From contig JARDZO010000190.1 in NCBI GenBank assembly GCA_029240815.1, positions 1-13,353 on the forward strand: a DNA stretch of 13,353 bases. The letters are read 5' to 3'. Both the position numbers and the translations under genes were made by a program. Position 1 is the first letter of the stretch. Each line of letters opens with the position of its first letter. Shown here in pieces: positions 419 through 7,063 of this stretch. The stretch is from Brevibacillus sp. GTDB taxonomy: Bacteria; Bacillota; Bacilli; Brevibacillales; Brevibacillaceae. A model generated the notes under the pieces. It did not search any database, was not told the origin of the DNA, and was given only the letters and a program-made list of their open reading frames with translations.

Positions 419-1318
<900 letters not shown>

Positions 1319-1867
1319 TTACTCCCTCTCTTTGTCTATGGCTTTCATAGCTGCTTCAAATTCATCCCGCTTGATCTGAAAGGCATTGAGTCGCTGCAGC
1401 ATCTGCTTGGCGTTGGCATACCCAATCCCAAGCTTCTCCCCCAGCTTGACCCGTCGCTCTTTGGAGGTGGTTCCTGATGTCAGACCGTGAGCCAGCATAT
1501 CGTCAGCAGTAATCTCTCCTGCTGTATCAGCCATCTCCGTCCGCACTTCCGATAAAGCCTGAACGATCACTTCAGGAGTGGCATTTTCCACCCCGATATC
1601 TCCCTTTTTCGTACCGTTTTCCTGGGTGATGAACGCATGCTTGCAGCCTGGCACCGCTTTGCTGATAATTTTGCGAATGCGCTCTCCCTGGTAATCAGGG
1701 TCGGTAAAAATGATTACGCCGCGCTTTTGCTGCGCCAGACGGATTTTTTCAATAGTCCAGGTATGGATAGCGGAACCGCCTGTCTCGATCGTATCAGCGT
1801 TGACTGCTCGCTTGATCGCTGCAGTATCGTCTCTTCCCTCCACCACGATAACTTCCTTGATCTTCAT
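1319..1867 (-). CDS. rnmV: Ribonuclease M5 (5S rRNA maturase)
   Basis: 182 residues from the chosen ATG (1867-1865). RNase M5 cuts both strands of the 5S rRNA precursor helix to release mature 5S rRNA, with ribosomal protein L18 as cofactor in Bacillus. The N-terminal half is a TOPRIM domain: VVEGRDD with the catalytic glutamate at residue 10, and the metal-binding TDPD at 55-58. The segment IRKIISKAVPGCKHAF around 64-79 is typical of the family. The frame stays open 16 codons further upstream, but the MKIKEVIVVEG start matches homologues and has a modest GTGGG ribosome binding site. The gene sits directly before rsmA, a conserved pairing of two rRNA-maturation functions. I found no convincing sigma-A promoter in the 166 bases upstream, so it may depend partly on readthrough from yabE. 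Confidence 0.95.
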   Translation of the reverse strand: MKIKEVIVVEGRDDTAAIKRAVNADTIETGGSAIHTWTIEKIRLAQQKRGVIIFTDPDYQGERIRKIISKAVPGCKHAFITQENGTKKGDIGVENATPEVIVQALSEVRTEMADTAGEITADDMLAHGLTSGTTSKERRVKLGEKLGIGYANAKQMLQRLNAFQIKRDEFEAAMKAIDKERE

Positions 1868-1943
1868 TCTTTGTTCCCACTTTCGTACATTGTCCCTATG
1901 GTACAAGTATGCCAAAAAAATGCGGCCAAAAGCCCCAGAAAGT

Positions 1944-1969
1944 TGAAACGTTCAAGCTATCGGAGCGTC
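1944..1969 (+). promoter_or_regulatory. Candidate ECF sigma-factor promoter, antisense to yabE
   Basis: On the plus strand TGAAAC (1944-1949) is followed by exactly 16 bases and CGTC (1966-1969, continuing TA). This is the layout recognised by Bacillus ECF sigma factors of the SigM/SigX/SigW type. No plus-strand gene follows; transcription from about 1975 would run into the 3' end of yabE on the opposite strand. In B. subtilis a SigX/SigM-dependent antisense RNA of yabE is known. The motif is seen directly; its activity is inferred. Confidence 0.62.
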
Positions 1970-2010
1970 TAACTAACAAACAGCTTAACACGGCTCGCAA
2001 CCAAACAGAA

Positions 2011-2033
2011 GACAGGAGCATATCGCTCCTGTC
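2011..2033 (-). terminator. Hairpin directly after the yabE stop codon, probable weak terminator
   Basis: A perfect 9-bp stem, GACAGGAGC and GCTCCTGTC, with a 5-base loop abuts the yabE stop codon. On the minus strand it is followed by TTCTGTTTGG rather than a clean T-run, so termination may be partial and allow readthrough into rnmV. On the plus strand there is no T-run at all. Confidence 0.5.
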
Positions 2034-3128
2034 CTACGGCTTCTGCGGTCCAATTATATAGACAGTTTTGTTACGCTTGCGGCCAAACTGGACCGCCTCC
2101 GACTCCGTGCTAACAAATACGTCAATCTTGCCACCTTTCATAGCCCCACCTGTATCTTCTGCACGACGATACCCTACTCCGTCAATATAGACCCACCATC
2201 CATACGGAATGACGCGAGGATCTACTGCGATCGTGTGACCCGCCTTTGCCTTTACTCCTGTCGCCGTACGACCATATCCCGGCGAGCTAGGAGGTTTGCC
2301 TCCTCCTGCAGGAGAATAGGCTGTCAAGGTAACCCCGTTCAGTACTTTTTTCGGCCTGAAAACTTTTCCACCGCGGGAAATACTCCCCGCTGCTGATGCG
2401 ATCAGAACCCGTTGCGATTTGTCTTCCGTACGCATCGCCACTGCAGTTCCCACAGCAACTACATGGTCCTTTTTCGGTATGACGACGTCTCTCGTCACGA
2501 GTTCACGGGAGATTTCTTTGCCATCCACTGTGACCAGCTTGTAGTGTGCAATTGCCTTACCTTCTTGTCCTGTTTGTAATACTTTGGTTTTACCTTTTTC
2601 CAACACAGGATCGTTTTTACGAATCTCCTGATAAGTGACGCGCTCTTCCTCTTCTACCATCTTCTCGACAACGCGTTTGACGGTGATGGATGAATTTTTG
2701 GCTAGAGACGCTGTCAAGGCCGGTTCCACCCGGTCCTTTTCACTAATCGCGATGCCGCCGTCCTTCAACGCGCCGGCAACATCTCGACTGAGTGTTTCAA
2801 TCATTTTTGTCTGCCCGTCAATCTGGACCGGTATGGACCAGACTGTATGTAAAGTTACTACTGCTCCGTTTTTAAGCTTCGTCTCAGCTGTCGGTTGAAG
2901 GGAATCCCTTTCCGTTACCGCGATCTGTCGCTCCGTCAAGAACTGCTCGACGGTTTCGGCTTTGGTAGCCACTGTGCGACTCTCTCCGTCTAACGAAAAA
3001 GTGACCTGTTTTGGCTGGGTAGCCTGGGCAGAGAAATACCCAATCATGGGAACGAGCACAAGAGCAAGAACACCGAAAAAGACGAGCCCTCGATTCTTAT
3101 ACCTTTCCCAAATCGTGCGTAACTCCAT
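2034..3128 (-). CDS. yabE: YabE-like cell-wall protein with DUF348, G5 and 3D domains
   Basis: 364 residues from an ATG at 3128 that has an AAAGGAG ribosome binding site (3138-3144) nine bases upstream; the frame extends further but without a better start. An N-terminal transmembrane or signal-anchor segment lies at about residues 14-35. Two DUF348-type repeats follow (about 41-80 and 98-137), then a G5 domain (about 151-228) and a C-terminal 3D domain (about 267-358). The 3D domain shows its three aspartates at D303 (AVDPRVIPYG), D325 (AEDTGGA) and D335 (GKIDVF). The family resembles resuscitation-promoting factors and YocH; the 3D domain has the MltA-like barrel fold, so a role as a secreted or anchored peptidoglycan hydrolase is likely but not proven. 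It has its own consensus promoter and about 110 bases of leader. A candidate antisense ECF promoter lies past its 3' end. Confidence 0.9.
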   Translation of the reverse strand: MELRTIWERYKNRGLVFFGVLALVLVPMIGYFSAQATQPKQVTFSLDGESRTVATKAETVEQFLTERQIAVTERDSLQPTAETKLKNGAVVTLHTVWSIPVQIDGQTKMIETLSRDVAGALKDGGIAISEKDRVEPALTASLAKNSSITVKRVVEKMVEEEERVTYQEIRKNDPVLEKGKTKVLQTGQEGKAIAHYKLVTVDGKEISRELVTRDVVIPKKDHVVAVGTAVAMRTEDKSQRVLIASAAGSISRGGKVFRPKKVLNGVTLTAYSPAGGGKPPSSPGYGRTATGVKAKAGHTIAVDPRVIPYGWWVYIDGVGYRRAEDTGGAMKGGKIDVFVSTESEAVQFGRKRNKTVYIIGPQKP

Positions 3129-3244
3129 TTCCCACACTCCTTTTCCTAGAAAAGCACATTGGCTTTTTCGGTCTAGCCAGGTAAGGGTCGTTGTAATTGC
3201 ACTAATATTCTGGAAGTGGCCGGTACTAAACAAGATTGGATTTG

Positions 3245-3273
3245 ATTGTATGTTACTTTTCCGGCTTTGTCAA
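3245..3273 (-). promoter_or_regulatory. yabE sigma-A promoter
   Basis: Minus-strand TTGACA (3273-3268), a 17-base spacer and TACAAT (3250-3245). The predicted start near 3238 gives a leader of about 110 bases. Within it, AAAAGC/GCTTTT arms at 3150-3167, flanked by CTAG on both sides, could form a hairpin next to the ribosome binding site. I recognise no known riboswitch class in the leader. Confidence 0.88.
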
Positions 3274-3348
3274 ATTTCCCCTACCTTTGGCCGAAGAGAT
3301 AATGGTACAAGCCTAGCAAAAAGCATCTGACGAATCATAGTTGTTTGG

Positions 3349-3412
3349 TGTCGAGCATGTGTGTCGATAGGACAATAATCGTTCGACACATTGTTCATGG
3401 TATGCGTCGACA
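3349..3412. promoter_or_regulatory. Cluster of four TGTCGA (0A-box-like) hexamers upstream of yabE
   Basis: TGTCGA occurs on the plus strand at 3349-3354 and 3362-3367, and its reverse complement at 3383-3388 and 3407-3412. The third copy extends to the full 7-base Spo0A box TGTCGAA on the minus strand; the others match six of seven. Copies two and three lie within an 8-bp inverted repeat, TGTGTCGA and TCGACACA. The cluster sits about 75-140 bases upstream of the yabE -35. Binding by Spo0A is inference. Confidence 0.5.
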
Positions 3413-3440
3413 AATCGGGGTAGAACCCAGGAAAAACGAA

Positions 3441-3482
3441 CGAAAAAAGCGGAAAACCACGAGTAGGACCGTGATTTTCCGC
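3441..3482 (-). terminator. Strong terminator after tatD
   Basis: Arms 3449-3461 and 3470-3482 form a 13-bp stem with one wobble and an 8-base loop. On the minus strand six T residues follow (3448-3443). The plus strand is also followed by a T-rich run, so it may work in both directions, including against antisense transcription from yabE. Confidence 0.92.
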
Positions 3483-3504
3483 TTTTACTTTGTTTTATTG
3501 CTTG

Positions 3505-4269
3505 TTACAGCTGAAATAATCGACGAGCGTTATCTGATGTGATTTGGGCCATTTCCTCATAAGACAAACCACGAATGTTCGCCATTTCCTCACAGACGTA
3601 GCGGACGTATCCACTCTCGTTTCGCTTGCCGCGGAAAGGATGCGGAGTGAGGTACGGGCTGTCCGTCTCGATCAAAAGGCGGTCAAGCGGTACTTTGGCA
3701 GCTACCTCCTTGGGTTGCTTGGCGTTTTTGAACGTAAGCGGCCCCCCAAAGGAAATGTAGAAATTCATGTCCAGTGCCAGCTTTGCGGTCTCCCAACTGC
3801 CAGAAAAGCAGTGCATGATTCCGCCAACCTCGGCTGCCTTCTCCTCTTTGAGGATGGAGATGACATCCTGATGGGCATCACGGTTGTGAATAATGATCGG
3901 CATCTCGACTTTGCGGGCGAGACGGATCTGTTTGCGGAACACGTCTGCCTGGACATCCTTGGGCGACGTATCCCAGTAGTAATCCAGACCCATTTCCCCT
4001 AGTCCTACTACTTTTGGATGACGGGTAAGCTCCTCAATCCATGCCAGATGCTCGTCAGTCATATCTTTTGCATCCTGTGGGTGCCATCCGACGACCGCGT
4101 AAATAAAATCGTATTTCTCTGCCAGCTCGATGCAGGTCGGGATCGTTTCGGCATTGAAGCCGATGTTAACGATCGTGCTGACCCCATTTTCTCTGGCACG
4201 AGCAATGACTTCTTCGCGGTCCTCGTCAAATTCCTTGGCATTCAGGTGCGTGTGCGTTTCAAATAACAC
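3505..4269 (-). CDS. tatD: TatD-family metal-dependent DNase (YabD)
   Basis: 254 residues, full length for the TatD family, which adopts an amidohydrolase-type TIM barrel and acts as a 3'-5' exonuclease or DNase with divalent metals. Expected metal ligands are all present: H6 and H8 in ETHTHLN, E92 in GLGEMGLDYY, H128 in PIIIHNRDA, H153 in GIMHCFSGS and D203 in LIETDSPYL. The C-terminal TPHPFRGKRNESGYV is also typical. The start is a GTG with an AAAGGAAGG ribosome binding site about nine bases upstream. It follows metS by 35 bases with no terminator between, so it is probably under the same T-box control, and it ends in a strong terminator. The cellular role in Bacillales is not settled. Confidence 0.96.
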   Translation of the reverse strand: MLFETHTHLNAKEFDEDREEVIARARENGVSTIVNIGFNAETIPTCIELAEKYDFIYAVVGWHPQDAKDMTDEHLAWIEELTRHPKVVGLGEMGLDYYWDTSPKDVQADVFRKQIRLARKVEMPIIIHNRDAHQDVISILKEEKAAEVGGIMHCFSGSWETAKLALDMNFYISFGGPLTFKNAKQPKEVAAKVPLDRLLIETDSPYLTPHPFRGKRNESGYVRYVCEEMANIRGLSYEEMAQITSDNARRLFQL

Positions 4270-4304: not shown

Positions 4305-6657
<2,353 letters not shown>

Positions 6658-7005: not shown

Positions 7006-7063
7006 TAATGCTTTCGGTTGAACAATAGCATCGACATGTCCAGATTTGGGAGGAGTAATCACA

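Follow-up and report, generated by a model that had tools for sequence, protein, structure and literature searches.

An ECF-type promoter motif that points backwards into yabE is present at the same place in all Brevibacillus genomes that we read, and it recurs in a Bacillus-like genus. We consider it probable that the motif is a real ECF promoter, firing backwards from just past the yabE terminator, and that the RNA made from it under stress lowers YabE as the S25 antisense RNA does in Bacillus subtilis. Comparison of the DNA demonstrates conservation of the predicted promoter and of its strand, a predicted terminator, the gene order, and an ECF sigma gene with a like promoter in 39/39 genomes of the order. 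The analysis started from a stretch of 13,353 nucleotides of Brevibacillus sp. (contig JARDZO010000190.1), referred to here as the window.

Position of the motif at the yabE locus

The window contains a minus-strand cluster of metS, tatD, yabE, rnmV, and ksgA (assigned with NCBIfam and Pfam). A YabE-type target (DUF348-G5-3D) and the gene order tatD-yabE-rnmV-ksgA are both features of the S25 system, and both are found here; the order is also that given in an excerpt of PMC1084345. The gap between yabE and rnmV is 166 bp long and contains the ECF-type motif. The features concerned are as follows.

419..1315, minus strand: ksgA (rsmA); TIGR00755 above cut-off
1319..1867, minus strand: rnmV (RNase M5); TIGR00334 above cut-off
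1944..1949, plus strand: TGAAAC, -35 element of the ECF-type promoter antisense to yabE; [TC]G[AT]AAC in 26/26 genomes of the genus
1966..1969, plus strand: -10 element CGTC, followed by TA; CGTC in 26/26 genomes of the genus, with a spacer of 16 or 17
1974..1978, plus strand: antisense RNA start at about 1976, as predicted from ECF promoter geometry
2034..3128, minus strand: yabE; DUF348, G5, and 3D domains, 364 aa; predicted antisense target

The sequence-only reading from which we started had described TGAAAC, a 16-base spacer, and CGTCTA on the plus strand, and its coordinates and spacing are correct (spacer, 1950 to 1965; CGTCTA, 1966 to 1971). The distance of 65 bases past yabE that it gave is that from the last base of yabE to the end of CGTC; CGTCTA ends 63 bases beyond the gene. 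It was also right that no plus-strand gene lies close ahead, the first to match a protein family being an AbrB-like ORF at 7046.

What is significant is where the motif lies and that it is conserved, not the match by itself. TGAAAC-N14-18-CGTC was observed once in the window, compared to 0.19 expected matches, and at least one match was present in 36 of 200 shuffled windows. In the genome of Brevibacillus centrosporus (G001, the source of locus L001), there were 59 matches to the pattern and 90 to the same pattern written backwards. It is because of these two comparisons that the bare match carries no significance.

Four of the 59 matches in the B. centrosporus genome read TGAAACGTTT (L229, 1005 to 1030; L022, 1501 to 1527; L230, 2052 to 2079; and L028). 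As judged by eye, two of the four stand before the ECF sigma gene and ~50 nt before the gene for an exported-looking protein, respectively; of the other two, one is ~440 nt upstream of another exported-looking protein and one is inside an ABC-ATPase-like gene.

Conservation in Brevibacillus and its order

Our first locus set consisted of 11 loci with YabE from named genomes, of which ten are recorded as Brevibacillus and one as Anoxybacillus sediminis. Exact TGAAAC-N14-18-CGTC was found in the aligned gap at 7/11 loci, and the remaining four have CGAAAC or TGTAAC at the equivalent place. The YabE of the locus titled A. sediminis (L009, from genome G004) groups with those of Brevibacillus, and the record appears to belong there.

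For the wider search, a relaxed site was defined as TGAAAC with one mismatch (AAC fixed), a spacer of 15 to 17, and an exact CGTC. This site was antisense to yabE in 26/26 genomes of the genus and on the sense strand in 0/26, with a chance expectation of ~0.011 per locus (dinucleotide shuffles of each gap). TGAAAC was exact in 15 of the 26 genomes, and the -35 was off by one base in the other 11. The fixed letters of the search force the apparent perfection of the -35 and the -10; the GTTT after the -35, which lay outside the search requirement and is free of that bias, has 1.45 bits per position, and the middle 8 positions of the spacer have a mean of 0.28 bits (27 rows in each case, including the window). 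The Brevibacillus loci therefore have, as the S25 system does, a conserved ECF-type promoter motif opposite and just past the 3′ end of yabE.

Among the other genomes of the order, the relaxed site was found in 4/13, or in 9/13 if CGTA is allowed. CGTA replaces CGTC as the antisense -10 in L079 and in the B. laterosporus-like genomes (L072, L073, L075, and L076). Four genomes (L078, L080, L081, and L101) fail even the CGTA-allowing test, despite having the L152-type sigma described below together with its promoter. Chance matches on the sense strand were seen in wider stretches of L081, L132, and L095. Both halves of the motif had been expected to be conserved between related species. In Brevibacillus they are, on the antisense strand and not on the sense strand, while the spacer has diverged; in Paenibacillus-like loci the expectation failed, the site being present in 0/6.

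Distribution beyond the order

For a Bacillus-like genus, which we take for Bacillus, 31 genomes were searched and 30 loci were retrieved; one of these (L226) was too short, and 29 were read. The antisense site was present at 29/29 of these loci and on the sense strand at 0/29. Together with the 26/26 in Brevibacillus, this bears out the earlier suggestion that the same layout exists in a diverged genus. It also bears on whether the motif is a chance match to a short consensus. The shuffled windows and the lack of enrichment in the B. centrosporus genome favor that reading, but the strand bias in both genera (26/26 versus 0/26 and 29/29 versus 0/29) runs against it, and we give it almost no credence. 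As a full explanation, chance is ruled out by conservation, a point for which counts from a single window or a single genome would be insufficient alone.

From the class, we sampled 58 of 194 rnmV-bearing genomes. The sample was non-random, consisting mostly of the top-scoring rnmV rows, and it leaves out most small genomes as well as the genomes of the order already covered. Of the 58 loci, 43 have yabE, 14 have no yabE beside rnmV, and one (L114) was assigned to neither group; absence of yabE refers here to the place beside rnmV only. The site was found at 9/43 yabE-bearing loci (L091 among them) and was missing from 34/43 (such as L115). None of the 14 loci lacking yabE beside rnmV has it. 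All 14 of these loci (including L130, L132, L135, and L141) have, by eye, a tatD-like ORF directly before rnmV. The shuffle-based test covered 42 class loci with gaps of ≤600 bases; this set includes L132, which lacks yabE, and omits L091 and L115. Since the site is absent from 14/14 loci without yabE beside rnmV, these data suggest that yabE is the reason for the ECF site.

A YabE tree with 88 rows requires that the trait changed at least 6 times; the tree was built with a quick method, has SH-aLRT support only, and contains several long branches. Because yabE-bearing lineages without the site separate the two groups on this tree, the arrangement may have arisen twice, once in Bacillus with its close relatives and once in the Brevibacillus order.

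Extent of the predicted antisense RNA

The predicted RNA and the elements that bear on its length are as follows.

1976..3490, plus strand: predicted antisense RNA, ~1.5 kb, from the promoter to the plus-strand terminator
2009..2035, minus strand: terminator hairpin of yabE, at its stop codon; -18.5 kcal/mol, z -5.27; visible in the alignments
3245..3273, minus strand: yabE sigma-A-type promoter TTGACA-17-TACAAT; both hexamers seen by eye in 12 aligned loci
3449..3496, plus strand: two-way intrinsic terminator, with a hairpin (3449 to 3482) and a T-rich tail (3483 to 3496); -22.1 kcal/mol, z -4.66 (plus strand)

An RNA of this extent is predicted to be complementary to yabE from its 3′ end through the coding region and leader to the promoter. 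The two-way terminator lies upstream of yabE and, in the minus-strand direction, would serve as the terminator of tatD. Its hairpin, with a T-rich tail, was seen by eye in 11/12 aligned loci, the exception being L009. A terminator scan of positions 1250 to 3550 on both strands gave 4 sites, compared to 1.9 from shuffles, and missed the hairpin at 3449 to 3482 because of an inner mismatch. From the promoter up to 3449, the scan gave a single plus-strand site of this type, a weak one at 2718 to 2735, which might end the RNA within yabE. The hairpin at 2009 to 2035 has a T-rich tail on the minus strand only.

We also considered whether the promoter gives rise to a short RNA or peptide from the plus strand that acts elsewhere, independently of yabE. 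The conserved block after the -10 speaks for such a product. However, the core of the block is retained in L101, a genome without the ECF site; positions 1850 to 2120 gave just two Rfam matches, far below the gathering score; the plus strand has no T-run at 2009 to 2035; and only the weak site at 2718 to 2735 was found ahead of 3449. We regard a short product as very unlikely and favor a long RNA antisense to yabE.

In the window as a whole, the only Rfam family at the gathering threshold was a T-box leader ahead of metS (6387 to 6640, minus strand; RF00230, 102 bits). Positions 1850 to 2120 and 3100 to 3540 gave sub-threshold Rfam matches only. The 5′ leader of yabE (3129 to 3250, minus strand) is unusually conserved, with a mean column identity of 89% across 10 sequences. 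A structured RNA in this leader is unsupported; the fold has a z score of +1.23 relative to shuffles, and one pair shows a two-sided change. Upstream of the yabE promoter, at 3355 to 3420, a 12-way alignment shows several TGTCGA/TCGACA repeats, among them a perfect TGTCGAA at 3382 to 3388 (minus strand). TGTCGAA, which we take to be the Spo0A-box consensus, occurs 5 times in the window, compared to 2.4 expected.

A presumed rnmV promoter faces the ECF-type promoter

One further element lies a few bases downstream of the -10.

1982..1990, minus strand: TGnTAAGCT, presumably the extended -10 of a promoter for rnmV-ksgA; faces the ECF promoter

TGnTAAGCT was found on the sense strand in 31/39 genomes of the order and on the other strand in 0/39. 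At 24/26 loci of the genus, AGCTTA or AGATTA (TAAGCT on the rnmV strand) stands 11 to 14 nt past the CGTC. In the Bacillus-like genus, ATTATA (TATAAT on the rnmV strand) stands 25 to 27 nt past the ECF CGTC, after the yabE terminator, at 28/29 loci; at the 29th, the scan stopped at an earlier ATTATA. This TATAAT would most simply be the rnmV promoter. Because it occupies the equivalent place, we read TGnTAAGCT, with reserve, as the extended -10 of the rnmV promoter; the reserve is due to TAAGCT being far from TATAAT. If this reading is right, transcription from the ECF and rnmV promoters would be mutually exclusive.

The facing element and the ECF site are separable, since L101 has TGnTAAGCT and L078 has TAAGCT, and the ECF site is absent from both. 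With its core kept in these two genomes, the conserved block after the -10 is unsupported as part of the ECF promoter. In the rnmV leader itself (1900 to 1935, minus strand), a T-run follows a small G+C-rich inverted repeat in several species, as judged by eye, and is possibly a weak attenuator.

A rival reading is that rnmV-ksgA is the main target, with the head-on ECF polymerase blocking the rnmV promoter and the yabE antisense RNA as a by-product. The facing ATTATA of the Bacillus-like loci and the facing AGCTTA or AGATTA of Brevibacillus both favor this. Nevertheless, the site is missing from all 14 loci that have rnmV without adjoining yabE, the facing element is kept without an ECF site in L101 and L078, and TAAGCT is a poor -10. 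We consider it improbable that rnmV-ksgA is the main target, and we retain yabE in that role. It is also conceivable, although we think it somewhat unlikely, that the two form a conserved face-to-face pair, an ECF promoter directed into yabE against a sigma-A promoter of rnmV-ksgA, with starts only a few bases apart in Brevibacillus, so that stress would silence the hydrolase and curb the rRNA-maturation operon.

A candidate sigma factor

With 91% identity in YabE, G010 is the nearest of the compared genomes to the window. It has 41 matches to PF08281, of which 30 were retrieved and scanned upstream, and TGAAAC-like sites were present ahead of three of these 30 (L152, L143, and L151). L152, an ECF sigma gene, gave the best promoter match, with TGAAACGTTTT-...-CGTC located 55 nt ahead of its start. 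The site upstream of L143 is TGCAAC-...-CGTC; that upstream of L151, which passes the SigM-subfamily cut-off, has CGTG in place of CGTC. Both halves of the motif and their spacing are thus common to the yabE site and the upstream region of an ECF sigma gene (the TGAAAC-N16-CGTC class). L152 is followed by a 453-aa ORF without a Pfam or NCBIfam match; the position of this ORF leads us to regard it as the anti-sigma.

The L152 sigma is present in 26/26 genomes of the genus and in 13/13 other genomes of the order. In all 39 its gene is preceded by TGAAAC (37 genomes) or GGAAAC (2 genomes) and CGTC at promoter spacing. Since the site precedes the sigma gene throughout, the resident ECF sigma probably uses this form of promoter and is probably autoregulated. 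Among the best 25 of 98 NCBIfam families, L152 passed only the general ECF cut-off, and it is not SigX or SigM by the curated cut-offs; its best sequence match among solved structures is SigW (5wuq). When 11 ECF-like sigmas of G010 were compared with NCBIfam, none was above the SigX cut-off among the families listed.

Covariation of the sigma promoter with the antisense promoter was unsupported in the laterosporus-like clade and L079, where the antisense -10 is CGTA and the sigma promoter has CGTC. Because these two forms stand side by side, one sigma does not explain every genome, hinting at a different sigma for the laterosporus-like and L079 sites or at a change of sigma.

Discussion

The S25-type yabE antisense switch is already known, mainly from B. 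subtilis. According to excerpts of three papers, S25 (shd4; Eiamphungporn and Helmann 2009) is a sigmaX/sigmaM-dependent cis-antisense RNA of yabE (PMC8464778, PMC7430163, PMC2784878); two of them give its length as ~1350 nt (PMC8464778, PMC7430163). When B. subtilis is moved from LB to M9, the antisense RNA goes up 1.1 log2 and yabE goes down 2.7 log2, and the antisense is predicted over 72 to 80% of the yabE coding sequence (excerpts of PMC2784878). The Brevibacillus case resembles S25 in being antisense to yabE and in its ECF-class promoter, gene order, and similar predicted length (~1.5 kb; the weak inner site at 2718 to 2735 is a possible end). It differs in belonging to another bacterial family, in a sigma not assignable to SigX or SigM, and in a predicted RNA that spans yabE from end to end together with the leader and promoter.

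Two other antisense RNAs can be compared, each from excerpts of the papers cited. BLi_r0026 of Bacillus licheniformis, a 4793-nt RNA antisense to metS, yabD, yabE, and rnmV (PMC3871023), is directed against the same cluster but is far longer and covers neighboring genes too. S1326 depends on sigmaB and is antisense to cwlO, an autolysin gene of B. subtilis (PMC7430163, PMC8464778). In both S1326 and our case, a stress sigma drives, or would drive, RNA antisense to a wall-hydrolase gene from its 3′ side; the sigma class and the gene are different.

Antisense transcription, its triggering by stress, and the repression of yabE in Brevibacillus would follow the B. subtilis precedent (PMC8464778, PMC2784878). 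In the mechanism that we propose, the anti-sigma would release the ECF sigma, and polymerase would start at the antisense promoter. The resulting ~1.5-kb RNA would extend across yabE in full, then its leader and sigma-A promoter, and stop at the terminator shared with tatD. YabE, a 3D-domain cell-wall enzyme, would then be lowered by RNA pairing, polymerase collision, or both, as with S25 in B. subtilis. B. subtilis YabE is one of three RlpA-like proteins, likely lytic transglycosylases, which help LytE function in the presence of magnesium (excerpts of PMC10653849), and lowering of YabE under envelope stress fits that role.

New here are the breadth of the arrangement, its linkage to the presence of yabE, the candidate sigma, and the facing presumed rnmV promoter; the distribution is wider, and the link to the target clearer, than in the descriptions that we found. 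We found no literature on a yabE antisense RNA in Brevibacillus; most subscription papers, the 2009 original among them, lay outside our search, and an earlier mention of conservation is possible. To our knowledge, conservation well outside a single species has been demonstrated for few cis-antisense RNAs, and doubts about the relevance of such RNAs are common. A second genus now offers a candidate sigma, promoter, target, and terminator as a test set, and the facing promoters raise the question of whether the same event also represses rnmV-ksgA. The antisense promoter is kept in all 26 Brevibacillus genomes despite a drifting spacer, it is found again in a Bacillus-like genus, and it is absent from the 14 loci without its target beside rnmV; this pattern is an argument that antisense control of a wall hydrolase is under selection.
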